Below, one piece after another: positions 8,824-39,037 of a DNA stretch of 64,000 nt. A model generated the notes under the pieces. It ran no database searches and had not been told where the DNA came from. It saw nothing but the letters and a program-made list of their open reading frames with translations. Location of the stretch: contig VBDU01000074.1 of NCBI GenBank assembly GCA_005883625.1, positions 1 to 64,000 on the forward strand, written 5' to 3'. How positions within the stretch are numbered: position 1 is the stretch's first letter; each line of letters opens with the position of its first letter. The translations under genes were made by a program, and so were the position numbers. The stretch comes from Chloroflexota bacterium. Its GTDB lineage: Bacteria > Chloroflexota > Limnocylindria > P2-11E.

Positions 8824-8888
8824 ATGGGATACACCCGCAACGGCGGCCCAGACCGCGGCCCGGCGCGTCGCGGCGCGCTCGTGCGCGT

Positions 8889-9761: not shown

Positions 9762-9788
9762 GCCCGTCCCTCCCGTTGAAGTCGGGAC

Positions 9789-9794: not shown

Positions 9795-9798
9795 TGTC

Positions 9799-9848
9799 GA
9801 GGGGGCCTCGCCCCAGGTCGAGGTGGCTCCGCCCCCTCGGACCCCCGC
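9799..9848. repeat. Dispersed G-rich palindromic repeat, copy A (intergenic)
   Basis: GAGGGGGC at 9799-9806 pairs with GCCCCCTC at 9831-9838. Read on the minus strand, the element contains GGGGGTCCGAGGGGGC followed by GGAGCC, the core shared with copies at 17066, 31505, 35274, 36155 and 59948. It lies in the divergent promoter gap between the 9761 operon and molybdenum hydroxylase cluster 1. Confidence 0.55.
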
Positions 9849-9853
9849 GCGAC

Positions 9854-9859
9854 TAGCAT
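9854..9859 (+). promoter_or_regulatory. Probable leaderless -10 box (TAGCAT)
   Basis: TAGCAT ends six bases before the GTG start at 9866, leaving no room for a ribosome binding site. The same spacing is seen at a dozen other starts in this window. Confidence 0.45.
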
Positions 9860-9865
9860 TCGTCC

Positions 9866-19348: not shown

Positions 19349-22300
19349 ATGGCCATGCGCTGCTACTTCTGCGGTCGTGAGCAAGGGCCGAAAGCGCCCG
19401 GCTTCTGTCTGTCGTGCGGTCGGCCCCTCACCGCGACGCCGGCCTCGGAGCTCTTCGGACGCCGGTACATCCTGAACCGGCTCGACGATCTCGCCCGTGG
19501 CGGCGTCCTGGACGCGGACTCGGCGGAGCGAGTCAGACGGGCGATGCTCCGGGAGCTCGGGGAGGCGCCCACGCCAGAGCCCGCGGCGCCGGTCGTGCCG
19601 TCGCCGGTGGACGCCGTGCCGGCCGTCGAAAGCCGGCCCGTGCCTTCCGTACGCCCGGCGGTCACCGCGGCGGTACGCCAGCGGCCTGCCGGACCGTCGC
19701 CGATCGAGAGCTTGTTCACGCCGGAACGCGCCCCGAGCCTGCTCCTCTACCTCGGCGCGTTCCTCGTCGTCGTCGCGGCTCTCATCTTCGTGAACGTCTC
19801 GCGCGAGCAGGTCTCGGACGCCGTACGTCTCGCGCTCATGATCGTTGGGACGCTCGGGTTCCTGGGTGCCGGCCTCCTGTGCCACCGTGTCCCGCGCGTC
19901 GAGGAGGCGGGGCGGACGTTCATCGTGATCGGGGCGCTGCTCGTCCCGGTCGACTTCGTCGCGTACTACGTGCTCGTGGCGCACGAGTCGCCGCTCACCT
20001 CGCCGGTCATGTGGATCGTCGGCTCGCTCTGGTCGGCTGGTCTCTACGGGGGGCTCGCAACGAACCGTTACGGCACGGCGTACGCGTACCTGTTCTTCGC
20101 CGCTTGTCTCAGCGCGATCGCGGGAATACTCGCGTGGTCCGACACCGTCGCCTGGGCGGGCGTGCTGTTCGCCGGTCTTGCCCTGGCGATCCAGCTGGTC
20201 GATGACCGCGCCGGGCGGACCGCGCTCGCACATCTGACCCGACCGCTGCTGCTGCCGGCGCGCGTTCTCGTGGCGGTCGCCCTCGTGGTCGGCTCGTCGA
20301 TCGCCCTCGCCGTCGGGCTCGGCGTCCCGGCCGGGGGGGACCGCTTCGCGCTGTCCGCGCTCGGCGTCGTCGGGCTCGCGTACTACGTGGTCAGAGCTCG
20401 CCTTGAGATCGGCTGGGAGCGATGGCTCGCGGTCGCCGGCCCTGCTGCCGTCGCCGAGGCCCTCGTGTTCGCGTTCGGCGCCCCGCTACAGACGTACGGC
20501 TTCGCGGCCGGGATCCTGGCCGTTTGCTACGCCCTCGCTGGAGAGCTCGGTGATCTCGCCGGCCAACCCACACCTCTTGCCGGATGGGTCCGTATCCGCG
20601 CGGTCCCGATCGCGTACGTCGCCGTCGGCGTCGCGCTCGTCCCGTTCGCCGCGTACTGGCGCGCGCCCGCCGTCGGCGCGCTCGTCTATCTCGGGATGAC
20701 CGTGCTCCTCGCGGTCCTCGTGGCGCGCCGCGCGCGCTCCGCGCGGGCCGCGCAGGCGTACCAGGGAGCGACGCTCGTCGCGGCCGCGGTGGCGCACGTC
20801 GGTGTGGTCTTCGCGCTCGTCGCGGCGGGTGTCCTGCACGCGGGGCCCGCGCCGATGTCCGGGCTCGTCTTCCGCGAGCTCGCGCTCGCCTTCAGCCCGC
20901 TCGCGGCAGGCCTCGCGGTGCTCGCGGCGCTCGCGCGGCGGCGACTCGCGCCGATCTCCCGCCCGCTCGCCATCGCGGCGGTGTCGAGCGCGGTGCTGGT
21001 GGTCGACTACGTGCTCGCGGACCCGCCGCTCGCCACGATCCTCGCCGCGCTCGCCGCCGCCGTGATCGTCGCGAGCGGCGTCGACGCCCGCCGCCCGGCC
21101 GCGCTCTGGCTGGCCGCCGCGTTCGCCGCGGTCGCCGCCTCGTCCGCCGTGCGCTGGCTCGACCCACCAGAGGCGACGCGGCCGGTGGCCGCGGCCCTCG
21201 CGGCGCTGGTCATCTTCGTGCCCGCGTACCTGCCGCGTTTCCGCGCGGATCCGTTCGCGCGCGTGGCGCGCGAGATCGCCGTCTCGCTGGCCGGCGTCGG
21301 CGTGCTCAGCGGGCTCGCGTTCGCGTTCGCACGATCGTTCGGCGCCGCGTCGCTCTTGCCCTGGGATACCGGCGTCTGGTGGGCGACCGTCCCGGTGGTC
21401 TCGGCCTTCGGCGCGATCGCGGTCGCCGAGGCGCTGCATCGTCGATCGCCGAGCCTCGTCCTCGCGGCCACGCTCTCGTTCCTCGGCTCAACGCTGATGA
21501 TCGTCGCGAGCCTGCATCCGGCGGCGGTCGAGGCCTACACACTGCCGGTCGCCCTGTACTTCGCGATCGTCGCCTGGGCGCTCTCTCGATTCGGCCCGGC
21601 CGAGCTGCGGTCCACACTCGCGACGCCGGCGCAGATCGCCGCGGCGCTCGCACTCATCGCGCCGACGTACCTCTGGAGCTGGCGGTCCGATGAGCCGGCG
21701 CGAACGGTCCTCGTCCTCGCCGAGGGGCTCCTGCTGCTCGGCGGCGCCGCGAACCGCGGGTCGGCCCCGCTCAGCGTCGTGTCGCTCGGTGCGCTCGCCG
21801 CCGCGGGCGTCCGCGCGACCGCCGCGCCGCTGGCCTTCGAATCCGTCGCGGGCATCGCGGGCGTCGCGACGATCGCGCTCACGCTGTTCGTGCCGGGCCG
21901 GATCGCCTGGCGCGTCGATCCGCGGCTGCGCGAGGCTGCCGAGGCGATGGGCGTCCTGCTGCTGCTCGCCCCACCGCTCGTCCGCGCGACGGCGTTCGGG
22001 TCCGACGCGCTGATGCAAGGAGGGAGCGTCCTCGCCGGCGGAACGGTCATCGTCGCGCTCGCGCTCTGGTCGGGCCGGAGGGCGCTCTTCGCGGCGGCCG
22101 CGACGATGCTTGGTTGCACCACGCTCGTCTCGCTCAACCGCACCGAGATGACCGAGCCGTATGTCGCCGCCGCCGGGGTGGCGATCGTCGCGCTGGCCCT
22201 CGCCATCCCGCGATATCTACCGCGCCGGCTGGCTGTCGAGCTCGAGTGGGCGCTGGAGATCCTCGGCGCCGCGATGATCGTCGCCAGCCCGCTCGTTCGC

Positions 22301-22900
22301 GCGTTCGGCGCTGCCGGGGCGGTCCCCGCGGCTCGCGCGCTCGCGGAGGGGATGGCGCTGCTCGCGATCGGTCTTCTCGTTCGCAGGCGGGCGCTCCCAG
22401 GCGCGGGATTCGCGGCGGTCGTCATCGTCGCGGCGTGGATCCTCGGCGATCCCTCCGCCCGGCAGTTCCACGCGATCGCGGCCGGCGCCGCGCTCGTCGC
22501 GCTGTCGCTCGCCGCGGTGCGTTATCGCGCGGACCTCCTCGACGAACGTGCGCTCATCGGAGCAGAGTGGCTCGGGGCCTTCCTCTTCGTCGGGCCCACG
22601 CTCCTCGCCTCGTGGAGCACCGATTTCTTCCCGGCGACGCCAATCGTCTTCTTCGAGATCGCCTTGATCCTCGGCACGGGGATCCTGCTTCGTCGCCGCT
22701 GGCTCGTCGTCGGGGCGCTCGCGGCCCTCGGCCTCGAGGCGCTGCGCGGAACGATCGACGTGGTGAACCGGCTCCCGAACTGGGCGCTGTTCGGCGTGAG
22801 CGGGGTCATCCTCCTCGCGGCAGGCTTCGTCCTCCTGCTGAAGCGCGAAGCCTGGAACCAGTGGTCGCATCGCGCGTACGGCTGGTGGGCCCGGCTCTGA
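19349..22900 (+). CDS. Very large polytopic membrane protein with N-terminal zinc ribbon (SCO7613 C-terminal-domain type)
   Basis: The protein has 1183 residues. It opens with a double-CxxC zinc ribbon (CYFCG ... CLSCG, residues 5-24), a soluble linker rich in Pro and Ala to about residue 125, and then continuous hydrophobic helices to the C-terminus, roughly thirty by eye. The layout fits the family annotated as SCO7613 C-terminal domain-containing membrane protein, whose function is unknown. Start alternatives are ATG 19349 and ATG 19355. No neighbour explains its role; it is divergent from the ECF sigma gene. Confidence 0.85.
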   Translation: MAMRCYFCGREQGPKAPGFCLSCGRPLTATPASELFGRRYILNRLDDLARGGVLDADSAERVRRAMLRELGEAPTPEPAAPVVPSPVDAVPAVESRPVPSVRPAVTAAVRQRPAGPSPIESLFTPERAPSLLLYLGAFLVVVAALIFVNVSREQVSDAVRLALMIVGTLGFLGAGLLCHRVPRVEEAGRTFIVIGALLVPVDFVAYYVLVAHESPLTSPVMWIVGSLWSAGLYGGLATNRYGTAYAYLFFAACLSAIAGILAWSDTVAWAGVLFAGLALAIQLVDDRAGRTALAHLTRPLLLPARVLVAVALVVGSSIALAVGLGVPAGGDRFALSALGVVGLAYYVVRARLEIGWERWLAVAGPAAVAEALVFAFGAPLQTYGFAAGILAVCYALAGELGDLAGQPTPLAGWVRIRAVPIAYVAVGVALVPFAAYWRAPAVGALVYLGMTVLLAVLVARRARSARAAQAYQGATLVAAAVAHVGVVFALVAAGVLHAGPAPMSGLVFRELALAFSPLAAGLAVLAALARRRLAPISRPLAIAAVSSAVLVVDYVLADPPLATILAALAAAVIVASGVDARRPAALWLAAAFAAVAASSAVRWLDPPEATRPVAAALAALVIFVPAYLPRFRADPFARVAREIAVSLAGVGVLSGLAFAFARSFGAASLLPWDTGVWWATVPVVSAFGAIAVAEALHRRSPSLVLAATLSFLGSTLMIVASLHPAAVEAYTLPVALYFAIVAWALSRFGPAELRSTLATPAQIAAALALIAPTYLWSWRSDEPARTVLVLAEGLLLLGGAANRGSAPLSVVSLGALAAAGVRATAAPLAFESVAGIAGVATIALTLFVPGRIAWRVDPRLREAAEAMGVLLLLAPPLVRATAFGSDALMQGGSVLAGGTVIVALALWSGRRALFAAAATMLGCTTLVSLNRTEMTEPYVAAAGVAIVALALAIPRYLPRRLAVELEWALEILGAAMIVASPLVRAFGAAGAVPAARALAEGMALLAIGLLVRRRALPGAGFAAVVIVAAWILGDPSARQFHAIAAGAALVALSLAAVRYRADLLDERALIGAEWLGAFLFVGPTLLASWSTDFFPATPIVFFEIALILGTGILLRRRWLVVGALAALGLEALRGTIDVVNRLPNWALFGVSGVILLAAGFVLLLKREAWNQWSHRAYGWWARL

Positions 22901-23093: not shown

Positions 23094-23608
23094 CGGCGCA
23101 GCTCGAAGATGAGCTCGCCGTCGACGATCTCGCCGGTCGCGACGAAGCCGAGCTTCTCGTGCACGCGCAGCGACGCGACGTTGTCCGGCGTGGTCGCGGA
23201 CACGAAGCGCCGCACCGCGTGCTCGCTGACGGCCCAGTCCATCAGCGCCCTCGCGACCTCGGTCGCGTAGCCCTGACGCCGGTAGGGCGGAAAGACCGTC
23301 CAGCCGAGCTCGGCCGCGTCCGGGTCGGCTACGTCGTTGCTGCCGGGCGGTCCGTGGAAGTTCACGAAGCCGACGACGACGCCGTCCGCGCGACGCACGA
23401 TCGCGCGCAGGAGCCACTCGAGATCGCCCGGGGACCGCGCGAGCTGGCGGCGGCGCAGCTGCAACAGCTCGTTGTCGCCGGCGGGGAACTCCGGCGGGAG
23501 CGTGACCCCGGCGAGCGCGGAAGCCTCGGCGCGCTCGCCCGCGATGAGCGCATCGAGGACGTCGCGACCGAGCGGGACGAGATCGAAACGCGCGCTGCGG
23601 ACGATCAG
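23090..23608 (-). CDS. GNAT-family acetyltransferase (RimJ/RimL-like), probable CTG start
   Basis: The 172-residue protein starts IVRSARFDLVPLGRDVLDALIAG and has the GNAT core ELGWTVFPPYRRQGYATEVARALMDWA (acetyl-CoA loop RRQGYA) and FVSATTPDNVASLRVHEKLGFVATGE, the classic ribosomal-protein-N-acetyltransferase ending. Between the XdhC gene stop (23605-23607) and the conserved start there is no ATG, GTG or TTG in frame, but CTG at 23608 overlaps that stop (CTGA), in the same geometry as the GTGA couplings elsewhere. I take CTG as the start. Confidence 0.85.
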   Translation of the reverse strand: MIVRSARFDLVPLGRDVLDALIAGERAEASALAGVTLPPEFPAGDNELLQLRRRQLARSPGDLEWLLRAIVRRADGVVVGFVNFHGPPGSNDVADPDAAELGWTVFPPYRRQGYATEVARALMDWAVSEHAVRRFVSATTPDNVASLRVHEKLGFVATGEIVDGELIFELRR

Positions 23609-24723
23609 CCCGTCTTGCGTGCGATCGTCCGCTCGAAGAGCTCGTCCGCGAGACGGAGGGGCTTGCCGCTGCCGCCGTGGCGCTCGAGCGACAGCTCGGC
23701 CATCACCGAGAGCGCGATCTCCGCGGGCGTGCGCCCGCCGAGGTCGAGGCCGATCGGCGCGTGGACCGCGCGGATCCGGTCCTCGTCCACCCCCTCGTCG
23801 CGGAGCATCTTCGCGATGAGGATCGTCTTGCGCTTGCTGCCGAGGAGCCCGACGTAACGGGCGGAGGTCTTCACCGCGGCGCGCAGGCAATGAGCGTCGA
23901 GCTTGTGTCCGCGCGTGGCGATCACGATGAACGTGTTCCAGCCGATGGGCATGGTCTCGAGCGCCTTGACCATGTCCATGTTCACGACCTCGTTCACGCC
24001 GCCGAAGCGCTCGCGGCTCGCGAACTCCGGCCGGTCGTCGACGACCGCGACCTCGTACTCGAGCTGCGTGGCGAGCTTGGCGATCGCCAGTCCGACGTGG
24101 CCGCCGCCCACGATGACGAGCCGCGGCTTGGCGATGACCGGCTCGATGAGCAGCTCGGTCTCTTCGTCGAGTGCGACCGTGCGCGCGGTCCCTCGGCGGA
24201 GCGCCTCGGCGGCCGCGGCCCGCGCCCGCGCGTCGAGGGCGGTGTCGCCGAGCGTGCCGCCGCCCTTGCCGCCGGTCTCGACGAAAAGCTTCCCCGCCGC
24301 CGTCAGGTCCTTGCCGCGCCTGCGCATGAGCGTGGCGAGCGCCACCGGCGCGCCGCCGGCCGACGCCGCGAGCACGTCGCCAAGGAGGTCCCGCCCTGCG
24401 AAACGGAGCGCCCGCTCGCCGGGCTCGATCTGGATCCACATCGTCCCGCCGCAGACGAGGCCGGTGTCCCACGCGAGCTCCTCGGTCAGCTCGTACTCGC
24501 GCAGGGAGGGGTCTCCGGTCTCGATGACCCGCTTCGCCTCGACGAAGGCGTCACCTTCGACGCAGCCCCCGCCGAGGGTGCCGACCAGGCGGCCGAGGTC
24601 GTCGACCAGGAGCTTCGCGCCCACGACCTGCGGGGTGCTGCCGACCGTCCGGACGACCGTCGCGATGGCGAATCGGCGGCCCTCCCGCTCGAGCTCGGCC
24701 ATCTTCGCGTAGATCTCGCGCAC
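23605..24723 (-). CDS. xdhC: XdhC/CoxI-family molybdoenzyme maturation factor
   Basis: The 372-residue protein has the N-terminal XdhC domain (VRTVGSTPQVVGAKLLV, VGTLGGGCVEGDAF, DTGLVCGGTMWIQIEP) and a C-terminal Rossmann domain (LVIVGGGHVGLAIAKLA, VDDRPEFA, VGLLGSKRK). XdhC proteins help insert sulfurated Moco into xanthine dehydrogenase-type enzymes, so this gene probably serves the three Mo hydroxylases of the window. GTG 24723 has TACAGT eight bases upstream (leaderless type). It is cotranslated with the downstream GNAT gene. Confidence 0.92.
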   Translation of the reverse strand: MREIYAKMAELEREGRRFAIATVVRTVGSTPQVVGAKLLVDDLGRLVGTLGGGCVEGDAFVEAKRVIETGDPSLREYELTEELAWDTGLVCGGTMWIQIEPGERALRFAGRDLLGDVLAASAGGAPVALATLMRRRGKDLTAAGKLFVETGGKGGGTLGDTALDARARAAAAEALRRGTARTVALDEETELLIEPVIAKPRLVIVGGGHVGLAIAKLATQLEYEVAVVDDRPEFASRERFGGVNEVVNMDMVKALETMPIGWNTFIVIATRGHKLDAHCLRAAVKTSARYVGLLGSKRKTILIAKMLRDEGVDEDRIRAVHAPIGLDLGGRTPAEIALSVMAELSLERHGGSGKPLRLADELFERTIARKTG

Positions 24724-25311: not shown

Positions 25312-25372
25312 CTCCCTTTACCAGACTGCTACTGTGGGCCCGCTTTCTCGACCGAATGCAGGGGGTGAACCT

Positions 25373-26344
25373 ATGGGGGAAGCGGGAGGACCGACTCCGT
25401 CCCAGCCCGAGCCGAAATCGATTTCCGAATCGCCCAAGTTGAGCCTCACGCGCAGAAGCTTTCTCATAGGAGCAGGTGCCGGCGCAGCCGCGGCCGGTGC
25501 GGTGCTCGGCGGAGCGGTCGTCGCGACCAAGGCGCTCAATCCGACTCCCACGACGACCACCACCACGGCGACGCAGCTCGGACCGACGATGCGTCGCGTC
25601 ACCCTCGACATCGACGGCGTCAAGCGCGACGTCATCGTCGACAACCGCGAGAGCCTCTGGGAGACGATGAACTTCCAGCTCGGACTCTCGAACTCGAACC
25701 TCGGCTGCGACCGCGCGCAGTGCGGCGCGTGCGCCGTCAACGTGGACGGCAAGGCGGTGAACGGCTGCACGATCCTGAGCGCGCGGATGGGGCGCGGCCA
25801 GAAGATTACGACGGTCGCCGGTCTCGCCACGGGGCCCGGGGTCAGCGGTCTCCACCCGGTGCAGCGCTCCTTCTGGCTCAACGGTGGCTTCCAGTGCGGG
25901 ATCTGCACCCGCGGCTTCATCATGTCGACCGTCGCGCTGCTGCGGACGATCCCGAATCCCACCGACGTGCAGATCGCCGAGGGGCTCTCGGGGAACATCT
26001 GCCGCTGCGGCGAGTACGCGAAGGTCTTTACCTCGGTGAAGACCGCGGCCGCCGAGCTGCGCGGCGAGAAGGTCACGTACCTGGCGAAGCCGATCTTCGT
26101 CGACGTGGTCGCTCCCGCCCAGCCGCCGCCGGCCGCTGCGGGCACGTCCAAGGCCTTCGACTTCGCGACGCCGTTCGCGACGATCGAGGACTTCGACACG
26201 TTCATCGAGCCGCTCAAGAAGCGCGACGGCATCCTCGACATCAGCGGCAGCGAGCGGACGATCACGGTCAAGTGGGACCCGGCCAAGCTCTCCGAGCAGC
26301 AGGTGCGTGACCTGCTCTCGAGCCTTGGCCGCGCGGTCAAGTAG
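25373..26344 (+). CDS. Molybdenum hydroxylase cluster 2, exported [2Fe-2S] subunit (Tat signal, C-terminal extension)
   Basis: The 323-residue protein begins with a Tat signal (LTRRSFLIGAGAGAAAAGAVLGG, twin Arg near residue 28), then a Pro/Thr-rich spacer. Two Fe-S domains follow: LGCDRAQCGACAV with NGCTI, and QCGICTRGFIMS with NICRCGEY. Residues about 258-323 form an extra domain whose pattern (ILDISGSERTITVKWDPAKL) resembles a ferredoxin-like HMA fold without CxxC. ATG 25373 follows GCAGGGGGTGAA; the upstream GTG 25334 is an alternative. The twin-Arg signal predicts folded export of the complex, like PaoA of E. coli. Confidence 0.9.
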   Translation: MGEAGGPTPSQPEPKSISESPKLSLTRRSFLIGAGAGAAAAGAVLGGAVVATKALNPTPTTTTTTATQLGPTMRRVTLDIDGVKRDVIVDNRESLWETMNFQLGLSNSNLGCDRAQCGACAVNVDGKAVNGCTILSARMGRGQKITTVAGLATGPGVSGLHPVQRSFWLNGGFQCGICTRGFIMSTVALLRTIPNPTDVQIAEGLSGNICRCGEYAKVFTSVKTAAAELRGEKVTYLAKPIFVDVVAPAQPPPAAAGTSKAFDFATPFATIEDFDTFIEPLKKRDGILDISGSERTITVKWDPAKLSEQQVRDLLSSLGRAVK

Positions 26345-26356: not shown

Positions 26357-28831
26357 ATGGCACGCCTTGAAGCCGTCCGGGTCGCGCAGGACGCGGCGTA
26401 CGCCGCCAGCCTCAGCGACGCCGACTGGTACGCGCTCTCCCAGGATCCCGACTGGCAGCAGCTCGTCGCCGAGCAGTCGGAACTGCTAACGAATGTCCTC
26501 GAGGTACACGGCCACAAGCTGCCCGGCGCGAGCCTGGCGGCATCCACGCAGAACGAGCTTCCCCCCGTCGGCCCCTTCAAGATCGTCGGGACAGACGTCG
26601 CGCGCCTGCAGGGCCTCGGGGTCGTCACCAGCCTCGGGCAGTACACCGAGAACATGCGCATGCCGGGCATGCTCTTCATGCGCACGCTGCGCAGCCGCTA
26701 CCCGCACGCGAAGATCAAGAGCGTCGACATCAGCAAGGCCGAGAAGCTCCCTGGCGTCCGCAAGATCCTCCACCGCGGCAACCTTCCCGACGTCTACAAG
26801 GACGTCTTCCTGGGCGCGGCCAACCCGACGCGGTTCCTCTTCAGCGAGGAGGTCTTCGAGGTCGGCGCGCCGATCGCGGTCATCGCCGCGGACAGCGAGC
26901 ACATCGCCGACGAGGCCATGCGCCAGATCGACGTGCAGTACGAAGTGCTCCCGGCGGCGCTCGACATGCTCGAGGCGATGAAGCCGTCGACCCAGAAGCA
27001 GTTCCCGAACCAGCTCGACGGCACGATCATCGCGGTGACGCCGCCCCTCGTGCGCGGCAATCCCAACGACACGCGGGCCGACGCGACGGTCGAGGCCGTC
27101 TTCCACAAGCCGATCGAGCAGCACGTCGCGCTCGAGCTCACGAACTCGCTCACCTACTGGGACAACGACAAGCTGAACATGACCTACACCGCGCAGCACG
27201 CGCACGGAACGCGGGCGAACCTGTCCCAGGCGCTCAAGATCCCGCAGAACAAGGTGCGCGTGTTCCAGCCCGGCTACATGGGCTCGGGCTACGGGTACCG
27301 GAGCGGCATCGACCTCGCCGAGGTGCACGCCGCGCTCCTCGCGAAGCTCACCGGCAGGCCCATCAAGCTCAACTACACGCGGTACGAGGACTTCGTGACC
27401 CGGACGCACCGGAACGAGTTCCGCGACGAGATGAAGATGGGCGTCAACAAGGACGGCACGATCGCCTTCGGGCAGTTCAAGGTCTTCGCGAACGTCGGCG
27501 CGCAGCGCGCCGGCGCCGCGAACGGGTCCTGGGTGAACATGCAGGACCTCTACAAGATCCCGAACCTGCGGCTCGAGGCGATCGACGTCATGACGAACAG
27601 CTACAAGTCGGGCCCGTACCGCTGCGTGAGCCATCCGAACGGGACGTTCGCGCTCGAAGTCACGATGGAGAAGGCGGCATACGCGATCGGGATGGACCCG
27701 GTCCAGTTCCGCCTCAAGAACCTCAACGAGACCGGGAACCCCGACACGAAGAAGCCGTTCAGCAACCCCGGCATGCGCGACTGCATCGACGCCGCGGCGA
27801 ACGCGATCGGCTGGACGGCGAAGTGGCACCAGCCGAAGGCGAAGGAGGTCCGGCCCGGGATCTTCCACGGGATCGGGCTCGCGGCGCACACCTGTAGCCA
27901 CGGCGCCGGCGGCAACCCGTCGACCGGCCAGATCGTCATCAACAACGACGGCAGCGTGCAGGCCATCTCCGCCTCGAACGACGTCGGCGGCGGCCAGCGC
28001 ACGACGATGCTGATGATCGCCGCCGAGTCGCTCGGCGTGCCGCTCGACCAGATCACGATCACCACGTACGTCGACACCGACAACACCACCGACACCGGCA
28101 CGACCGCAGGCAGCCAGCAGACCAACAACGGCGGCCGCGGCATGTACCAGGCCGGCCAGGACGCTCGCCGGCAGGTCCTCGACTGGGCCGCGCGGAAATT
28201 CAAGGACGACGCCGCCAAGAAGGGCGGGACGCTCGACGTCACCGCGGCGGACATCGAGCTCGTCGACGGCAACGTCTTCGTCAAGAGCAGCCCGAGCACG
28301 AAGGCGAAGCTCGCCGATGTCGTGCAGTTCAAGGGCGGCCCCATCCACGGCAAGTCCGAGTTCATCCAGGACACCATCTGGGAGCGGCTCGCCTGGGCCG
28401 CTCACGCCGCGGAGGTCGAGGTCGACACCGTCACCGGGACGGTGAAGATCACGAAGTACGTCGCGGTGCACGACCTCGGCAAGGCGATCAACCCGTTCGC
28501 CTCGAAGCAGCAGATCGAAGGCGGCGTGGTCATGGCGGTCGGGGCGGCCCTCACCGAGGAGCTGCTCATCGACAAGTCGACCGGCCTGCCGCTCAACCCG
28601 AACCTGCTCGACTACAAGCCGCTCTCGATCAAGGACGCGCCGCTCGCCGAGGTCATCATCGTCGAGAAGCCCAAGGCCTACGGCGTGTTCGGCTCGCACG
28701 GCCTCGGCGAACCACCGATGGGCCCGCCGGCCCCCACGATCGTGAACGCGGTCTACAACGCGGTCGGCGTCTGGGTCACGGACATGCCGTTGACGCGGTC
28801 CAAGCTCTTGGCCGCGCTCAAGGGCGGGTGA
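26357..28831 (+). CDS. Molybdenum hydroxylase cluster 2, molybdopterin-binding subunit with Cys in the active-site loop
   Basis: An 824-residue large subunit with an N-terminal extension of about 75 residues. Superfamily landmarks are KIVGTDVARLQGLGVV, the degenerate glycine motif YMGSGYGYRSG (normally GGGFGxK), SNDVGGGQRTT, and the catalytic Glu in HGLGEPPMGPPAPTIVNA. The active-site loop is SGPYRCVSHPNGTFALE; its Cys falls where the CO dehydrogenase loop (AYxCSFR) has the Cys that carries the CuS-Mo centre. The rest of the loop differs, so CO oxidation cannot be assumed. It has no signal of its own and is expected to be exported with the Tat-bearing Fe-S partner. GGGAGGGAAGAG precedes ATG. 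Confidence 0.9.
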   Translation: MARLEAVRVAQDAAYAASLSDADWYALSQDPDWQQLVAEQSELLTNVLEVHGHKLPGASLAASTQNELPPVGPFKIVGTDVARLQGLGVVTSLGQYTENMRMPGMLFMRTLRSRYPHAKIKSVDISKAEKLPGVRKILHRGNLPDVYKDVFLGAANPTRFLFSEEVFEVGAPIAVIAADSEHIADEAMRQIDVQYEVLPAALDMLEAMKPSTQKQFPNQLDGTIIAVTPPLVRGNPNDTRADATVEAVFHKPIEQHVALELTNSLTYWDNDKLNMTYTAQHAHGTRANLSQALKIPQNKVRVFQPGYMGSGYGYRSGIDLAEVHAALLAKLTGRPIKLNYTRYEDFVTRTHRNEFRDEMKMGVNKDGTIAFGQFKVFANVGAQRAGAANGSWVNMQDLYKIPNLRLEAIDVMTNSYKSGPYRCVSHPNGTFALEVTMEKAAYAIGMDPVQFRLKNLNETGNPDTKKPFSNPGMRDCIDAAANAIGWTAKWHQPKAKEVRPGIFHGIGLAAHTCSHGAGGNPSTGQIVINNDGSVQAISASNDVGGGQRTTMLMIAAESLGVPLDQITITTYVDTDNTTDTGTTAGSQQTNNGGRGMYQAGQDARRQVLDWAARKFKDDAAKKGGTLDVTAADIELVDGNVFVKSSPSTKAKLADVVQFKGGPIHGKSEFIQDTIWERLAWAAHAAEVEVDTVTGTVKITKYVAVHDLGKAINPFASKQQIEGGVVMAVGAALTEELLIDKSTGLPLNPNLLDYKPLSIKDAPLAEVIIVEKPKAYGVFGSHGLGEPPMGPPAPTIVNAVYNAVGVWVTDMPLTRSKLLAALKGG

Positions 28832-28848: not shown

Positions 28849-29847
28849 GTGAGAGGCTTTGAGCTCTACGACGCGGGCACTGTCAAAGAAGCGGTCGACC
28901 TCCTTCAGAAGCACGGCAGCCGGACCGTGAAAGTCCTCGGCGGCGGGAGCGATCTCGTCGGCGGCGTGATGAAGGACTGGGTCCAGGGCAAGGGCATGCC
29001 GCTCCCCGAGGTCCTCATCGACCTCACGACCATCAAGGACCTCGCGACCATCAAGCTCGACGGCGGCAGCACCACGATCGGCGCGGTCGTGACCCTTCAG
29101 GAGATCGTCGACAACGACGAGCTGAAGAAGCGGCTCCCGCTGCTCACGCAGGCCGCCGAGAGCGTCGCCTCGCCGCTCATCCGGAACTTCGGCACCCTGG
29201 GCGGCAACGTCAACCAGCGGCCGCGCTGCTGGTTCTTCCGCGGCGAGGATTTCAACTGCTACAAGAAGGGTGGCGACTTCTGCTACGCCGTCACCGGCGA
29301 CAACCGCTACCACGCGATCATCGGTGGCGAGCTCTGCTACATCGTCCATCCCTCGGACACGTCCGTCGCGCTCCTCGCCCTCAACGCGAAGGCGAAGATC
29401 GCCGGCGTCGGCGGCGACCGGGACGTCGCGTTCGACAATTACTTCATCGGGCCGCGCGAGGACGTCCTGCGCGAGAACGTCCTCAAGCCGAACGAGTTCA
29501 TGACCCACGTCGAGATCCCGAACCCGGCCTCAGGCACGAAGTTCGGCTGGACGAAGCTCAAGGACCGGCAGGTCTACGACTTCGCCCTCATCTCGGTCGC
29601 CGCGGCCTTCACGGTCGACGGCGGCACCTGGAAGGACGGGCGCGTCACGCTCGGTGGCGTCGCCCCGGTCCCGTACCGCGCCAAGGTCGTGGAGGACGCG
29701 CTCAAGGGCAAGAACATCAAGGACACGATCAAGACGGCCGCGGCGCAGATCCGCACCGTGGCACGCCCGATGAGCGTGAATGCGTACAAGGTCGACCTCG
29801 CGCAGGGGCTCATCGAGCGCACGATCATGGAGGCCCTCGGCAACTAG
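28849..29847 (+). CDS. Molybdenum hydroxylase cluster 2, FAD-binding subunit with four-Cys insertion
   Basis: The 332-residue protein has the FAD loop VLGGGSDLVGGVMKD near residue 26 and TLGGNVNQRPRC near 118. A four-Cys stretch follows (RPRC, FNC, DFC and GELC), as in PaoB, so a [4Fe-4S] centre is likely. The C-terminal domain is standard (YDFALISVAAAF). GTG 28849 is fixed by AAGGAGGT at 28833-28840, eight bases upstream. All three cluster 2 proteins are unusually Lys- and Asn-rich for this genome, with AAG/AAC codons, suggesting high expression. Confidence 0.92.
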   Translation: MRGFELYDAGTVKEAVDLLQKHGSRTVKVLGGGSDLVGGVMKDWVQGKGMPLPEVLIDLTTIKDLATIKLDGGSTTIGAVVTLQEIVDNDELKKRLPLLTQAAESVASPLIRNFGTLGGNVNQRPRCWFFRGEDFNCYKKGGDFCYAVTGDNRYHAIIGGELCYIVHPSDTSVALLALNAKAKIAGVGGDRDVAFDNYFIGPREDVLRENVLKPNEFMTHVEIPNPASGTKFGWTKLKDRQVYDFALISVAAAFTVDGGTWKDGRVTLGGVAPVPYRAKVVEDALKGKNIKDTIKTAAAQIRTVARPMSVNAYKVDLAQGLIERTIMEALGN

Positions 29848-30158: not shown

Positions 30159-30980
30159 CTAGTTCCTCGCGCGCTCGTGTTCCTGCACGCCCTTGATGCC
30201 GCGCAGCGCCCACTGGTGCGACGCCGGGTTCGCCGCGACGTAGCTGCCGTCCGAGTGGAGCCACGAGCCGCCGTCCGCGTCGGTGATGAGACCGCCGGCC
30301 GACGGCAGGATGACGCAGGCGGCGGCGACATCCCAGGGCTTCGCGTCGAGCGTCCAGTACGCGTGGATCCGCCCCGCCGCGACGTAGCAGAGGGCGAGCG
30401 CCGGTGAGCCCCAGACGTATTGCTGCAGGACCTCCCTCGCGAAGACGCCGAAGATCCGCAGCGCGATCTCGCGCCGCGGACCGCTCGGCGGCAGGTCCGT
30501 CGCGACCCAGGCCTGCTCCCAGAACTCCGGACCGAGCGCGGTGTTGAGCACCGTGATCGGCCGGTTGTTGAGCGTGGCGGGCGCGCCGAGCGTGGCCGCG
30601 AACGTCTCGTCCCGGATGGGGTCGTACACGACGCCGACGCGCAGCACTCCCTCGACGCGGAGCGCGATGGACACCGCGAAGAACGGGATGCCCTGGGCGA
30701 AGCTGAGCGTCCCGCAGATCGGGTCGACGATCCAGAGCCGCTCCGCGTCGACGGCGAGCGGCTCGTCCTCGGGGCCCTCTTCGACCAGAATGGCGTCGTC
30801 GGGACATTCGTTCTGGAGGACCGAGACGATCGCCTGCTGCACCTCGAGCGTCGCGCCGGTCACGACGTCACGCTGGCCCTTCCACGTGAGGTATCCGGGA
30901 TCGCCGAGCTTGGCGAGGGCGACCCGGCCGCCGCGGAACGCCGCGCGCTTCGCGAGCTCCAGAGCCGCCGCGTCGTCCAT
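30159..30980 (-). CDS. Inositol monophosphatase-family protein with altered metal motif
   Basis: The 273-residue protein has the IMPase layout: AILVEEGPED (metal Glu), WIVDPICGTLSFAQGIPFFAVSIAL and the C-terminal WDVAAACVILPSAGG. In the central motif the usual DPxDGT reads DPICGT: the second metal-binding Asp is replaced by Cys (codon TGC). Such a change would be expected to weaken or alter phosphatase activity on inositol phosphate, fructose bisphosphate or PAP-type substrates. The rest of the fold is intact. TATCCT six bases upstream of ATG 30980 suggests a leaderless mRNA. Confidence 0.88.
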   Translation of the reverse strand: MDDAAALELAKRAAFRGGRVALAKLGDPGYLTWKGQRDVVTGATLEVQQAIVSVLQNECPDDAILVEEGPEDEPLAVDAERLWIVDPICGTLSFAQGIPFFAVSIALRVEGVLRVGVVYDPIRDETFAATLGAPATLNNRPITVLNTALGPEFWEQAWVATDLPPSGPRREIALRIFGVFAREVLQQYVWGSPALALCYVAAGRIHAYWTLDAKPWDVAAACVILPSAGGLITDADGGSWLHSDGSYVAANPASHQWALRGIKGVQEHERARN

Positions 30981-30995: not shown

Positions 30996-31367
30996 ATGCC
31001 TTCGCCCACGCTCGTCCGGACGATCGTCTGCTCGTACACGCGCGACGAGCTGCCCGCCGCATGGCTTGCGGTCTTTCGCCGCTTCGAGCGAGTCATCGAG
31101 CGCGCCGGGCTGCGCGTACGCGTACGGCTCGATCCGCTCGAGGAGCTGCCCGAGCGCTTCGAGGTCCTCGTCGTCCCGGAGGAGCTTCGCGAGCGCGCGG
31201 AGTCGCTCGCGGGCGTCGCGCGCGTGATCGCGACGACTCGCACCGACGCCACGACCGCGGCGAACGACCTCGTGCGCGAGCTCCAGGCCGGGGCGACGCT
31301 CACCGCCGAGCGCCGCAGGCCGGGCGAGCCGAGGATCGTCGTCCATCGCGGAACGGAGATCCTGTGA
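30996..31367 (+). CDS. Hypothetical alpha/beta protein
   Basis: The 123-residue product starts PSPTLVRTIVCSYTRDELP and contains RFERVIERAGLRVRVRLDPLEELPERFEVLVV, alternating predicted helices and strands. I do not recognise a family. ATG 30996 is 15 bases from the divergent IMPase-family start, and the stop overlaps the start of the next gene (GTGA), so the two proteins are coupled. Confidence 0.6.
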   Translation: MPSPTLVRTIVCSYTRDELPAAWLAVFRRFERVIERAGLRVRVRLDPLEELPERFEVLVVPEELRERAESLAGVARVIATTRTDATTAANDLVRELQAGATLTAERRRPGEPRIVVHRGTEIL

Positions 31368-31669
31368 GCGAGAACACGGTCAACAGGAAGCTCCTCGAGC
31401 GCCTGCGCCGCGTGGAGCAGCAGATCCGCGCGTTCAAGGAGCTACACGCGAGCGAGCTCCAGATCGTCCTCGACGAGCTCGCCGACATCGCCGGCGAGGT
31501 CGAGGCTAGTCGGGGAGCTCCGCTCCCCGGCCCCGAGGCGCCGGTCGACGATCCCGCGGCGAATTCGCCGAAGCGCGCGAAGTGGCTGGCGGAGCAGGAG
31601 CGCAAGCAGCGTCCGCAGTCGCGGCGCGAGCTGCTCTTCGGGCGCGGCGAGGAGCCGCGCTCGGACTAG
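31364..31669 (+). CDS. Small coiled-coil protein
   Basis: The 101-residue protein starts SENTVNRKLLERLRRVEQQIRAFKELHASELQIVLDELADIAGEVE, a heptad-like helical stretch over about 45 residues, followed by a Pro-rich disordered tail that is partly encoded by repeat copy E and a basic C-terminus. GTG 31364 overlaps the preceding stop. Family and function are unknown; it probably partners the 30996 product. Confidence 0.6.
   Translation: MSENTVNRKLLERLRRVEQQIRAFKELHASELQIVLDELADIAGEVEASRGAPLPGPEAPVDDPAANSPKRAKWLAEQERKQRPQSRRELLFGRGEEPRSD
31505..31536. repeat. Dispersed G-rich palindromic repeat, copy E (inside a coding sequence)
   Basis: CGGGGAGC-TCC-GCTCCCCG (31511-31529) is a perfect 8-base stem with a TCC loop, preceded by CTAGT. 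The same CTAGTCGGGG lead and TCC centre occur in copies F (36155) and D (35274). It encodes SRGAPLPGPEAP in the tail of the coiled-coil protein. Confidence 0.55.
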
Positions 31670-32766
31670 GGCCGCGTCCTCCGCGCGCGGCTCACGAGCG
31701 CGAGCCCGCCAAGCATGAGCCCGATCGCCGCGAAGCCCACGACGTACACCGTGGGGTCGCGGAGCGGGTCGACGGAGGCGACGCGGCGCGTGGGCGGCTC
31801 GGTCGCATCGAACGGCTTCACCGGATCGGGTCGCGTCGCGAGCGCGGCCTTGCCCTCGTCGTCGAGCGTCACGGCGTAGATCTCGAAGTTGCCACTGCGC
31901 GGCGAGGCGAAGAGGAGCTGGCTGCCGTCGGCGCTCAGCTCGAACGGGCCCTGCGCGAGCACGCCCTTCGCCACCTCGGTGCGCAGATCGCCGGCGCGCG
32001 GATCGACGGACCAGAGGTCCGTGTAGCTGATGTCCGGCGTCACGAACTCGCTCACGTAGACGATCCGCCCGTCGGGCAGGTACACCGGGAAGTGGCTGCG
32101 CTCGTCCTTCGGCGAGATCGGCGACGGGGTCGCCCCGATCGCCGAGGCCATGAGCAGCACCCGCGAGTGATCGCCGTCCGAGAACGCAAGCTGTCGACCG
32201 TCGGGCGACCACGCCGGCGAGTGGCACGCGAACGTGCACTGGTTGTTGCGCTCGCTCGCAAGCTGGCGGGTGAGCTGGACGGTGTTCCCGCCGTCGGCCT
32301 CCGTTGTCCAGATGTCCATCGCGCCGTCGCGATAGACGTAATAGCTGATGCGCGTGCCGTCCGGACTCCAGCTCGGGAAGCTCGTGATCGCGCCGCTCCG
32401 CGTGAGCTGTGTCCGGGCGCGCGATGCCATGTCGATGACCCAGATGTCGCGCTTGATGTCGCTGCCGGAGTCGACCGCGATGCGTTTCCCGTCGGGACTC
32501 CAGGTCGGATGGCGGTCGTCCGCGTCGCCGCTCGTCAGCTGGCGGACGTTCCCACCATCGGCGTCCATGACGTAGATGTGGTACGGGCCGTCGCGGTTGG
32601 TCTGGAACGCGATGCGCTTCCCGTCGGGGCTCCACACCGGCCGCAGGTTCGACGCGCTCGTCTGCGTGAGCTGGCGGATCGGCGACGCGCCGACCGTGGT
32701 GCCGCCGCTCACGAACGCGACGCACGCCGCGAGGCACAGCACCCGGACGAGCAGCATGCGCGTCAT
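31666..32766 (-). CDS. PD40/TolB-like beta-propeller protein, exported and membrane-anchored
   Basis: The 366-residue protein starts with a signal sequence (LLVRVLCLAACVAFVSG) and has four or more PD40 repeats of the type RPVWSPDGKRIAF, HPTWSPDGKRIAV, FPSWSPDGTRISY and SPAWSPDGRQLAF, each about 45 residues, forming a propeller. A C-terminal hydrophobic helix (VYVVGFAAIGLMLGGLALV) and an RARR tail anchor it in the membrane. TolB-like propellers bind protein or sugar partners; this one is unassigned. The start lies just after the stop of the 74-residue membrane protein, so they are cotranscribed. Confidence 0.85.
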   Translation of the reverse strand: MTRMLLVRVLCLAACVAFVSGGTTVGASPIRQLTQTSASNLRPVWSPDGKRIAFQTNRDGPYHIYVMDADGGNVRQLTSGDADDRHPTWSPDGKRIAVDSGSDIKRDIWVIDMASRARTQLTRSGAITSFPSWSPDGTRISYYVYRDGAMDIWTTEADGGNTVQLTRQLASERNNQCTFACHSPAWSPDGRQLAFSDGDHSRVLLMASAIGATPSPISPKDERSHFPVYLPDGRIVYVSEFVTPDISYTDLWSVDPRAGDLRTEVAKGVLAQGPFELSADGSQLLFASPRSGNFEIYAVTLDDEGKAALATRPDPVKPFDATEPPTRRVASVDPLRDPTVYVVGFAAIGLMLGGLALVSRARRTRP

Positions 32767-32767: not shown

Positions 32768-32992
32768 TCAGCCCCTGACCGCCGCGCTTTTCGTCACAAG
32801 CCGGTAGCACTCCCACGCCAGCAAGGCCGCGAACAGCCCTATGGTCAGACCACCCAGCAAGAGGGCTGCCTGCGCCGGAAGGCCCTCGTGCTGCGCGGTC
32901 TTCGCCACGAACGCGTTCACGACCATGAGGATCGCGAGCACGGCGTTCAGCGCGGCCCAGACGAGGGCCAGCAGCGCGGCGAACGCCTTCAC
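32768..32992 (-). CDS. Small two-helix membrane protein
   Basis: The 74-residue protein is two hydrophobic helices (ALVWAALNAVLAILMVVNAF and LLGGLTIGLFAALLAWECY) with a short polar loop. GTG 32992 overlaps the stop of the cytochrome b gene (GTGA), so it belongs to the 34634-31666 operon; an accessory role for the cytochrome b subunit is plausible. No family was recognised. Confidence 0.7.
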   Translation of the reverse strand: MKAFAALLALVWAALNAVLAILMVVNAFVAKTAQHEGLPAQAALLLGGLTIGLFAALLAWECYRLVTKSAAVRG

Positions 32993-33858
32993 TCATCGTC
33001 TCCGCCCGCGGCGCTCGCCGGGGCGACCCGCGGCGCGGGCGCGAGCGATGCGCTCGCGCGCCCGGTCGTCATCGCGACGACGAGCGACCAGCGCGCGAGC
33101 GTGTACCGCAGATGGTCGAGGACTTTGATGAGGATCAGCACCATCGCCGCGACGTGCAGGGTCGAGGCCCAGTACAGGAGCGGCCCCGGGACGGGGTAGA
33201 CGTAGCGCGCGGCCTTCGCGAGACCGGTGATCGTGATGAGTGTGAGCACGAACGTCCACGTGGGGAACGAGAACGCCGTCTCGTAGAACGAGAACTTCCC
33301 CGCAGTCGGTCGCTCGCCGCGCAGGTCGAGGCCGAGCCGCGAAGCGATCATCCGGCCGAGGCGCGGCGGCAGCTCGTGCGCGAGCCCTGTGAGGTGTCGC
33401 CGCCACTGGCCGCGCGGGACGAGCAGCGAGCGGTCCGTGCCGGCCCACCAGTACCCCAGGAACCACGCGAGCGTGAAGAGGATCAGCATCGCGCCGATGT
33501 AGTGGATGCGGTAGATGAGGTAGAGCGGGAGCGGCAGCGAGACGTCGAGGATGCCGCCCATGTACTGCCACACGCCGGTCGGGAGCGCGAGCAGGAAGCC
33601 CAACGCGAGGAGCCAGTGGCCGGCGATGGTCGCGGGCGCAAAGCGGCGAGACGCGTCGGCGCGCCGCGGGCCGCCGAGGGCGATCCCCAGCGCGAGCCCC
33701 AGCGCGAGGGCGAACGGGATGACCTTGACGAAGACGAAGTTGTCCGAGAGCTCCTCGTCCCAGGGCTGCGCGCCCGAGCCGGCCTGGCCGAGCGTCGCCA
33801 CCGCACCGGACACTGCGAGGGCGATCGCGACGAGCGCGACGAGCCAGCGGACGATCAC
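32989..33858 (-). CDS. Cytochrome b-type membrane anchor (formate dehydrogenase gamma / b561-like)
   Basis: The 289-residue protein has about six hydrophobic segments, including an N-terminal signal-like helix, GHWLLALGFLLALPTGVWQYMGG, YRIHYIGAMLILFTLAWFLGYWWAG and STLHVAAMVLILIKVLDHLRY. The His in GHW, RIHYIG and TLHVAA are candidate heme b ligands, in the pattern of FdnI/b561-type quinone-reactive anchors. It is cotranslated after the Tat-type 4Fe-4S protein (GTGA overlap), forming an electron-transfer module from a periplasmic enzyme to quinone. The longer frame to 34431 is a shadow. Confidence 0.82.
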   Translation of the reverse strand: MIVRWLVALVAIALAVSGAVATLGQAGSGAQPWDEELSDNFVFVKVIPFALALGLALGIALGGPRRADASRRFAPATIAGHWLLALGFLLALPTGVWQYMGGILDVSLPLPLYLIYRIHYIGAMLILFTLAWFLGYWWAGTDRSLLVPRGQWRRHLTGLAHELPPRLGRMIASRLGLDLRGERPTAGKFSFYETAFSFPTWTFVLTLITITGLAKAARYVYPVPGPLLYWASTLHVAAMVLILIKVLDHLRYTLARWSLVVAMTTGRASASLAPAPRVAPASAAGGDDE

Positions 33859-34634
33859 GCCTTGCCCTTGGCGGGGCTGCCCTCGAACGTCTGGAACGTG
33901 CGGAGCTGCGCCCAGGTCTGCCGGTCGCCCTTGGGGGCCTCGAGGCACAGGTGGTCGCTCTTGAGGACCCCCTGCCGTATGCGGATGTTCACCGGGCAGC
34001 GCTCGACGCACGCCGGGCCGCCCTCGCGCCAGAAGCAGAGATCGCACTTTGCGAACGTGTCCTTCTCCGGGTCGTAGGTGATGCGGCTGCGCTGGTGGAG
34101 CGTGAGCTGGTTCGTCGCGTGCGCCTCGTCGCTGATCGGGAACGGGCACGCCTCCGCGCACCGGCCGCAGGTGACGCAGGTGTCCTCGCGGATGAAGCGC
34201 GCGCCGGTACGTGGCTCGACCTGGAGCGCGTCGACCGGGCAGACGTAGAGGCACTCCGCGGTCGGGCACTGGAGGCACGGCTCCTGGTGGAACGAGCCGC
34301 GGTCGGGATAGGCCTCCTGGATGACCGGCGACACCTTCACCTCGGGGTCGTTGAAGATCCGGATCCGCGGGACGTCGGAGAGCCCGGCGCGGCGGTGCTC
34401 CTGAGAGCAGATGACCTCGCACGTGAGGCACCCGATGCAGAGCTGCGGGTCCGGGAAGATGACCGCGTCCGCGAGCGCGGTCGACCTTGGGCTCGCGCCG
34501 CTCGCGATGCCGACGCCGCCGATCGCCTCGAGCGCGATGAACGCGACGATCGGCGCCGCGCCTTTCAGGAGATCCCGGCGCGAGAGCTCGGGATCCGCCG
34601 CTCTTTCGTCGCGCCCGGTCCCTTGTTCGCTCAC
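33855..34634 (-). CDS. Tat-exported 4Fe-4S electron-transfer protein (FdhB/DmsB-like)
   Basis: The 259-residue protein starts with a Tat signal (LSRRDLLKGAAPIVAFIALEA, twin Arg at about residue 19). Four cluster-binding sets follow: CIGCLTCEVICS, CLQCPTAECLYVCP, CVTCGRCAEACP and a fourth CDLC ... CVERCP spread over about 18 residues, typical of the four-[4Fe-4S] subunit of Mo/W-bis-MGD enzymes. With the cytochrome b gene it makes a complete electron-transfer arm, but no molybdopterin catalytic subunit of that type is in the window. GTG 34634 has GAAAGGGG upstream. Confidence 0.92.
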   Translation of the reverse strand: MSEQGTGRDERAADPELSRRDLLKGAAPIVAFIALEAIGGVGIASGASPRSTALADAVIFPDPQLCIGCLTCEVICSQEHRRAGLSDVPRIRIFNDPEVKVSPVIQEAYPDRGSFHQEPCLQCPTAECLYVCPVDALQVEPRTGARFIREDTCVTCGRCAEACPFPISDEAHATNQLTLHQRSRITYDPEKDTFAKCDLCFWREGGPACVERCPVNIRIRQGVLKSDHLCLEAPKGDRQTWAQLRTFQTFEGSPAKGKA

Positions 34635-34674: not shown

Positions 34675-35313
34675 CTACGACGTCAACGTGACGCCCGCGG
34701 CGAGGTCCTCCAGCGTGTCCACGTCGCGCAAGACGCCGCGATCCTCCACGTCGAGGTCCACGCGGATGTCGGTGTGGCGCTTGATGACCTCGTGGAGATT
34801 GGACCGCGGATCGGTCGCCGCGATCTCGTCGCGGAGCGACAGCGGGACCGCGACGGGATGCCCGCGCTTGCCGCGGTACCTCGGGGACACGATCGCCGGC
34901 CGGCGTTCGTACGTCTCGATCACAGCGCGTACGGTGTCCGGCCGGACGAAGGGCATGTCGCCGGGGAGCACGAGCACCGCGTCCCCGCGGGCCTGCGCGA
35001 CGCCTTCCTGGATCGAGGAGAACATCCCGCGGGAGGGATCGGGGTTCTCGATCGGGCGCACGCGCGGGTCGAGGAGCGAGTTCACGTCGCGCTCGAGCTC
35101 GGTGCGCGCGTCCTTTCCCACGACGACGATGACCTCGGCGGCGCCGCCATCCAGTAGCGCGCGGATCGTGCGGTCGAGCAGCGGCTCGCCGTCGATCGGG
35201 GTGAGCAGCTTGCGCCCGCCGAACCGCTCCGCGGATCCCGCGGCGGGGACGACCGCTACGGCCCGGATCGATCGCGGGGGCTCCGCCCCCGCCGCCCCCC
35301 GGCTAGCTGCCAT
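34675..35313 (-). CDS. mocA: Molybdenum cofactor cytidylyltransferase-like NTP transferase (MocA)
   Basis: The 212-residue protein has the nucleotidyltransferase signature VVPAAGSAERFGGRKLL near residue 21 and later VLVLPGDMPFVRPDTVRAV, as in MocA/MobA. MocA makes the MCD (cytosine) form of Moco used by this enzyme family, so it is the maturation partner of cluster 3 and perhaps of the others. About the first 18 residues (MAASRGAAGAEPPRS) are encoded by repeat copy D, so the functional start may be further in. It overlaps the broken FAD-subunit gene. Confidence 0.85.
   Translation of the reverse strand: MAASRGAAGAEPPRSIRAVAVVPAAGSAERFGGRKLLTPIDGEPLLDRTIRALLDGGAAEVIVVVGKDARTELERDVNSLLDPRVRPIENPDPSRGMFSSIQEGVAQARGDAVLVLPGDMPFVRPDTVRAVIETYERRPAIVSPRYRGKRGHPVAVPLSLRDEIAATDPRSNLHEVIKRHTDIRVDLDVEDRGVLRDVDTLEDLAAGVTLTS
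35274..35292. repeat. Dispersed G-rich palindromic repeat, copy D
   Basis: GCGGGGGC-TCC-GCCCCCGC is a perfect palindrome with TCC centre, at the 5' end of mocA (minus strand). It contributes SRGAAGAEPPRS to that protein. Confidence 0.55.
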
Positions 35314-36149
35314 CGCGCAGACTCCGGAGGGCGCGCTCGGCGAACACGCGCGAGGCGCGCTTGCGCTGCGAGATCGTCCCCGACGTGTTGTCCATCGGCC
35401 GCGCCGCCTTGTGCACCGCGTCCGCGGCGGCCGCGATGGCCTCGTCTTCGAGGCGCGTGCCGACGATCGCCTTCGCGGCGGCCGCGACGAGCATGGGCCG
35501 CGACGCCACCGCGGTGATCGCGATGCGCGCGTCGCGAACGGTCGCGCCCTCGAGACGCACGGCCGCGGCGAGGCCGACGATGGGGAAGTCGAACGAGTTG
35601 CGATCGCGCAGCTTGAGGTAGGCGCTGCGCCAGCCCTCCTCGAGAGGAAGCTCGACCGCCGTCACCACGTCGCCCCGCTCGAGGGTGAGATAGCTGATGC
35701 CGTCCTCGCGGTAGAGGTCGGCGATCGCGACGCGGCGCTCTCCCTGCGCGTTCGCGACGACGGCGGACGCGCCGAGCGCGATGAGCGCGGGCACCGTGTC
35801 AGCGCTCGCGACCGCGAGGCAGCGCGGGGACGACGTCGCAACACGGCAGACGACGCTCGCGTGCGTCTTCATGCAGTAGCCCTCGGCGGTCCGCCAGAAG
35901 AGCGACTGGTCGTACCAGTTGCACCGCGTGTCGAGGCAGATGTTCCCGCCGACCGTGCCCATGTTGCGGAGCTGCGGCGTGGACACGAGGCCGGCCGCGG
36001 TCGCAAGCGCGGCGTGGCGCTCGCGTACGAGCTCGTGCTCGGCGATCTCGGTGAGCGACGAGCATGGCTTTGGGGTCTTCGCGGAGCATGCGCGCGGCCT
36101 CCGCGTACGTCGCCGCGCGGACGAAGCGGAAGCGCGGAAGGCGCAGCAC
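35303..36149 (-). pseudogene. Molybdenum hydroxylase cluster 3, FAD-binding subunit, internally deleted and frameshifted
   Basis: From GTG 36149 the frame reads VLRLPRFRFVRAATYAEAARMLREDPKAMLV and then fails. The rest of a normal FAD subunit continues in a different frame from about 36058: SLTEIAEHELVRERHAAL, STPQLRNMGTVGGNICLDTRC, GYC, CRV, SPRC (four Cys, HcrB-like) and the C-terminal domain to 35303. The segment normally lying between the two parts, which carries the AGGTDL FAD loop and about 45 residues, is absent, and the two halves are off by one base. The break lies between 36056 and 36060. It may be a true decayed gene or an assembly gap. Confidence 0.85.
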
Positions 36150-36150
36150 G

Positions 36151-38577: not shown

Positions 38578-39037
38578 TCTTCGCGGCCTTCTCTACCGCT
38601 TCATAGATCGCGGTGTACCCGGTGCAGCGGCAGAGATTGCCGCTGATCGCCTGGGCGATCTCCGCGCGCGTAGGGTGCCCGTTCTCATCGAGCAGCGCCT
38701 TCGCCGCCATGAGCATCCCCGGCGTGCAGTAGCCGCACTGCGCGGCGCCCTCTTCGGCGAACGCGGTCTGCAGCGGATGAAGCTCGGCGCCGCGCGCGAG
38801 CCCTTCGACGGTCGTCACGTCGGCGTCGCCGATCGCCACCGGCAGCGTGAGGCACGAGAGCACCGGCGCGCCGTCGACGAGCACGGTGCACGCGCCGCAC
38901 TCGCCGAGCTCGCAGCCGTGCTTCGTGCCGGTGAGGCCGAGCTCCTCACGAAGGACTTCGAGGAGCGTGTGGTGAGGCTCCGCCGCGACGGTGCGCGCCT
39001 CGCCGTTCACGCGGAGCGTGAGGAGCTCCTTGGTCAC
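38570..39037 (-). CDS. Molybdenum hydroxylase cluster 3, [2Fe-2S] subunit
   Basis: The 155-residue protein has GCELGECGACTVLVDG with SCLTLPV for the first cluster and CGYCTPGMLMAAKALL with NLCRCTGYTAIYEAV for the second, the full CoxS/HcrC pattern. No signal peptide, so this enzyme is cytoplasmic. GTG 39037 overlaps the IclR gene stop (GTGA). The gene order is IclR, Fe-S, Mo, FAD, mocA, one operon. Confidence 0.93.
   Translation of the reverse strand: MTKELLTLRVNGEARTVAAEPHHTLLEVLREELGLTGTKHGCELGECGACTVLVDGAPVLSCLTLPVAIGDADVTTVEGLARGAELHPLQTAFAEEGAAQCGYCTPGMLMAAKALLDENGHPTRAEIAQAISGNLCRCTGYTAIYEAVEKAAKSV

Follow-up and report, generated by a model that had tools for sequence, protein, structure and literature searches.

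The described molybdenum hydroxylases closest to the system reported here are the cytoplasmic 4-hydroxybenzoyl-CoA reductase (4-HBCR) HcrABC (1rm6), the periplasmic aldehyde oxidoreductase PaoABC (5g5g/5g5h) and the Mo-Cu CO dehydrogenase (CODH), which is not known to be exported by the Tat pathway and is, to our knowledge, the sole xanthine-oxidase-family enzyme with a protein cysteine at its Mo center. PaoABC combines an alpha-beta-gamma subunit plan with a Tat signal on the Fe-S subunit and a [4Fe-4S] cluster in the FAD subunit, and we know of no HMA-like domain, four-[4Fe-4S] protein or cytochrome b partner in that system; HcrABC likewise has a [4Fe-4S] insert in its FAD subunit. The active-site loops differ, with R-G-H-G in HcrABC, MRAPGE in PaoABC and AYxCSFR in CoxL, the Mo subunit of CODH (1n5w, 8uem). 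CODH also has its own maturation by CoxD, CoxE and CoxF, in which copper insertion needs CoxE and CoxF mobilizes copper through phytase activity (PMC4240915).

Here, we describe a locus in a 64,000-nucleotide stretch of a Chloroflexota genome assembly (GCA_005883625.1, contig VBDU01000074.1, positions 1 to 64,000; hereafter the window) that, on our best reading, encodes an exported Mo hydroxylase that belongs to a new subfamily, has dedicated partners and is probably not a CODH. The genes for the Fe-S, Mo and FAD subunits follow one another in that order (Table 1), and we found no description in the literature of either the Cys423 loop of the Mo subunit or the gene set. A promoter and terminator scan gave no signal above chance.

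Table 1. Features of the Mo hydroxylase locus, with positions in the window.
Feature	Position	Strand	Evidence and remarks
XdhC/CoxI-type Moco sulfuration/insertion factor	23605..24723	-	XdhC_C 1.2e-42, XdhC_CoxI 5.6e-26
Tat-signal-bearing 2x[2Fe-2S] subunit (TRRSFLIGAGAG)	25334..26344	+	Fer2_2 3.8e-23; 8 Cys; C-terminal HMA-like domain
Mo (Moco) subunit	26357..28831	+	824 aa; Cys423 loop SGPYRCVSHPNG; H511-x-C513-x-H515 loop; GSGYGYRSG; E785
FAD subunit with 4-Cys [4Fe-4S] insert, 4-HBCR/PaoB type	28849..29847	+	FAD_binding_5 7.5e-37
IMPase-family protein with Cys for the second metal-ligand Asp (DPICGT)	30159..30980	-	PF00459 6.3e-51
Small conserved cluster protein c7	30996..31367	+	No Pfam match; homologues in matching positions at 6 loci
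Small conserved coiled-coil-like cluster protein c8	31364..31669	+	No significant Pfam match; homologues in 4 other loci
Cytochrome b561/FdhGamma-like membrane protein	32989..33861	-	Ni_hydr_CYTB 3.5e-10; conserved His in TM segments
Tat-exported FdhB/HybA-like protein	33855..34634	-	Fer4 families; 16 Cys, four [4Fe-4S] motifs; SRRDLL motif

The open reading frame of the Mo subunit begins with ATG and contains the loop SGPYRCVSHPNG and the glycine motif GSGYGYRSG (residues 309-317), as a preliminary description of this DNA had stated. MoCoBD_1, MoCoBD_2 and Ald_Xan_dh_C all matched well above their Pfam cut-offs, and these three domains together with the catalytic Glu, E785 within GLGEPP, identify the protein as a member of the xanthine oxidase family. 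An AF2 model (pLDDT 87.5, pTM 0.88) has a predicted fold that is ordinary for this family, with Foldseek matches to 4-HBCR (1rm6), PaoC and CoxL at a TM of about 0.8 (0.80 for CoxL, which likewise has a Cys-bearing loop on its Mo side); HcrABC was the best solved match in both sequence and fold. Scores against the equivalog models for CODH, PaoC, 4-HBCR and XdhA were far under every cut-off (TIGR02416 for CODH, 191.5 versus 991; PaoC, 298.8 versus 1180; HcrA, 346.8 versus 994.55). The claim that the loop departs from the AYxCSFR, AYRGAGR and MRAPGE forms held: RCVSH replaces the MRAPGE loop of PaoC, which lacks the Cys pair, while HcrABC has no counterpart of H511, C513 and H515 and CoxL has no HxCxHG segment.

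The complex follows the PaoABC-type plan of three subunits, a Tat signal and a FAD subunit with [4Fe-4S], which aligned to 5y6q_B, 1rm6_B and 5g5g_B across the insert (Cys 127, 137, 145 and 163). A Tat motif, TRRSFL, lies on the 2Fe-2S subunit directly upstream of the Mo subunit, and TRR was present in all 15 Fe-S-subunit orthologues having complete N-termini. Since the Mo and FAD subunits carry no Tat signal and the Fe-S subunit does, they would be exported along with it. At its C-terminus the Fe-S subunit has an HMA-like domain (about 26102-26341) whose profile matches are copper ATPases (best 4.3e-7). No CxxC occurs in this domain and no Cys in any of 12 aligned copies; the domain is missing in the loci L076 and L078, and we rejected it as a classical copper chaperone for want of the CxxC.

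Conservation of Cys423 in close homologues had been named beforehand as one of the points on which the preliminary description would stand or fall, and Cys423 was present in 27 of the 27 distinct homologues spanning that position (34-85% identity, two phyla), an invariance that is not due to chance. Ala or Gly occupied the position in all 15 scored outgroup Mo hydroxylases, and in a maximum-likelihood tree all homologues, including the distant L032, formed one clade (support 100/98). Homologues came from genus, family and phylum samples and one scan of public genomes, a sampling that covers Chloroflexota and Acidobacteriota and includes several incomplete metagenome-assembled genomes. Within the family of the source genome the enzyme occurred in 13 further genomes; elsewhere in Chloroflexota it was found in other families (G143, G229, G306 and G250, the last as a contig fragment only), and in the Acidobacteriota group in 5 of 396 genomes sampled, with one copy (L026) labelled Candidatus Sulfopaludibacter. 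In a plasmid collection all matches were below 60% identity, the best among the matches listed being 33%. Two enzymes within the clade with an RCTxHPN-type loop (L041 and L030) retain C423 and C513. Locus L078 also holds a distant paralogue operon (7147-13259) with the Cys loop QRCVGNPQG, the motif HACAHG, a normal GGGFGDK and 4Fe-4S and cytochrome b genes within its single run; Mo subunits resembling this paralogue occur in G017 and G021 as well.

The preliminary description had overlooked the HMA-like domain, the 4Fe-4S and cytochrome b partners and the co-inherited IMPase-like protein with its Cys, and also a second invariant Cys that lies between His residues in an AHxCxHG segment: H511, C513 and H515 were present in 23 of 23 scored clade members, with HACAHG in two further members. 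The Mo subunit has three Cys in total (423, 476 and 513), two of which belong to the set of residues that are constant within the clade and not beyond it (C423, H504, H511, C513, H515, D579, H351, W490, H491, Q718 and a few more). Two fixed Cys with flanking His in the active-site loops are absent from the relatives compared. C423 aligned with Gly913 of bovine XDH, the neighbor of Phe914, and C513 with Phe1005, in an XDH stretch whose numbering is consistent with residue labels in the literature. The Phe1005 equivalent of nicotinate dehydrogenase, Tyr13M, has a modelled hydrogen bond to the substrate (PMC5746545), and XDH docking lists include both Gly913 and Phe1005 as close to ligands (PMC10742721). 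From these correspondences, C423 and C513 both very probably face the pocket.

The four-cluster protein, an orthologue of which matches HybA/NrfC/FdhB families, and the cytochrome b form a pair resembling the Tat-exported four-cluster ferredoxin and b-type membrane cytochrome of formate dehydrogenase-N (FdnHI) and HybA, although there the catalytic partner is a formate dehydrogenase or hydrogenase and here it is a xanthine-oxidase-family enzyme. In L078 the Fe-S, Mo, FAD, four-[4Fe-4S] and cytochrome b genes form a same-strand run of five, and L072 has the same order on one strand. All 14 genomes of the family that carry the enzyme also had the cytochrome b gene, against 0 of 14 genomes from the same order that lack the enzyme (Fisher p 5e-8, a value that ignores relatedness and linkage between neighbors), and neighbors may also be co-inherited through transfer as a block, with no function in common. 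This linkage, in which the enzyme is accompanied in Chloroflexota by the Tat-exported four-cluster protein and the cytochrome b, is new, and from it we infer quinone-linked respiration of the enzyme in that phylum. Two observations count against our best reading: cytochrome b was not found in the five enzyme-bearing Acidobacteriota genomes, and in the window the 4Fe-4S/cytochrome b pair lies on the strand opposite the enzyme and is also near a second Mo hydroxylase. No multihaem cytochrome c was found in the compared stretches of the Acidobacteriota loci, where a lone protein with a single CxxCH was seen, close to the L026 copy.

The other recurrent neighbor belongs to the IMPase family, whose metal-site motif is DPxDG[ST]. 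In 22 of 24 copies, that of the window included, this motif is replaced by DPICG[ST]; the two exceptions (L141 and L142), with DPIDGS, lie beside the RCTxHPN-type enzymes L041 and L030, respectively. The gene was present in 22 of 23 enzyme-bearing genomes (the exception being G250); 14 genomes without the enzyme lacked it, as did G023, in which the L032 type is the sole one. This linkage of the IMPase-like protein to the enzyme, seen in both phyla, is new. The protein would be a dedicated partner of the enzyme, with maturation as our guess for its role. The adjoining genes c7 and c8, which overlap at start and stop, belong to no known family, and a PD40 beta-propeller protein whose N-terminus resembles a signal (31666-32766, minus strand) is conserved next to the Mo enzyme at seven loci, the window included.

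The preliminary description had put Cys423 at the position of the Cu-S-Mo cysteine, which stood in part: within PYRCVSH it follows the conserved Arg, as in CoxL, and a HMMER alignment sets it opposite the CoxL Cys, but a MAFFT fragment alignment places it one position off. By hand count from a conserved TN to the Glu that follows the loop, the length equals that of XDH and 4-HBCR and is two residues short of CoxL, whose surplus, also hand counted from the TN, is a single residue on each side of the Cys; the correspondence is approximate, given the longer CoxL loop and the disagreement by one between alignments. A CO dehydrogenase of the Cu-S-Mo type placed in a novel sequence context would account for the R-C pair and agrees with CoxL being among the good fold matches. 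We nevertheless consider it highly improbable: PYRCVSH is not an AYxCSFR loop of CoxL length, 4-HBCR and PaoC are the nearest solved relatives and score above CoxL, CoxE was under the cut-off in this genome (92.5% complete; PF05762 best 20.2 versus 26.4 bits), and the TIGR02416 score is low. Membership in CODH was rejected on loop length, CoxE and the equivalog score, and the proposed copper-sulfur-molybdenum site has found no support so far. The more general suggestion, that the protein is an exported family member with an invariant Cys next to the conserved Arg in the loop on the Mo side, was in contrast borne out.

We regard as probable a heterotrimeric, Tat-exported respiratory Mo hydroxylase with a Cys/His-lined pocket, matured by XdhC and accompanied by the IMPase-like partner. 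The trimer would fold in the cytoplasm, be matured by XdhC and leave through the Tat signal of the Fe-S subunit, with the cytoplasmic IMPase-like protein, Cys at its metal-ligand position, assisting most likely in maturation. Outside the membrane a small substrate would be oxidized at the Moco, with C423 and H511-x-C513-x-H515 in the pocket and E785 as the usual base, and electrons may pass from Mo through 2x[2Fe-2S], FAD and the [4Fe-4S] of the FAD subunit to the four-cluster protein, cytochrome b and quinone; in Acidobacteriota a different last carrier would be required. That the enzyme is instead an ordinary PaoABC-like exported aldehyde oxidoreductase, in which the Cys and His merely tune the pocket, is a realistic if unlikely alternative: the subunit plan, Tat-bearing Fe-S subunit and [4Fe-4S] in the FAD subunit are shared, and XdhC matches an AOR maturation-factor model (under cut-off), but the PaoC model score, R-C in place of R-A-P-G, the strict co-fixation of four residues and the special partners all speak against it.

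The co-fixed C423, C513 and flanking His could alternatively bind another metal, which may be Cu, Zn or Fe, next to Mo, in a heterobimetallic site that parallels the CODH CuSMo site but differs from it, with the IMPase-like protein helping to load the metal. The clade-specific Cys2His2 set (plus H426/D579), the co-inherited partner with Asp replaced by Cys at a metal ligand, the HMA-like domain and, as a loose parallel, the phytase-type copper mobilization by CoxF (PMC4240915) are consistent with this, yet we think it unlikely, as the HMA-like domain is without CxxC and missing in two loci, CoxE is under cut-off and the loop shorter than that of CoxL, and the IMPase Asp is kept beside two RCTxHPN-type enzymes that have both Cys. 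A bolder combination, in which an exported, quinone-linked Mo hydroxylase acquired a Cys2His2 second metal by Mo independently of CODH and an IMPase-derived cytoplasmic protein became its assembly factor by exchanging a metal ligand for Cys, seems to us rather unlikely. Quite doubtful is a C423-C513 disulfide formed across the pocket after export, structural or redox gating and with no second metal; it would fit the constant co-presence of both Cys in scored clade members and a Tat signal that implies function outside the cytoplasm, but leaves the invariant H511 and H515 unexplained. Under the respiratory Mo hydroxylase that we favor, a separate clade whose active-site loops contain two fixed Cys together with His would offer a test of how this scaffold acquires new chemistry, a likely respiratory, exported Mo hydroxylase is added to uncultured soil Chloroflexota, and strict co-inheritance makes the Cys-bearing IMPase-like protein a concrete candidate partner.

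The window encodes further Mo hydroxylases. A second complete FAD/Mo/Fe-S enzyme (35306-39037, minus strand) has a PKRGHG loop and an adjoining MobA-like gene (34675-35313), and may share the nearby 4Fe-4S and cytochrome b proteins. Another xanthine-oxidase-family pair of Fe-S and Mo subunits, with an AFRAPG loop, lies at 9866-12666 (plus strand), and a hydrophobic membrane-like protein of 1183 aa and no Pfam match is encoded at 19349-22900 (plus strand).
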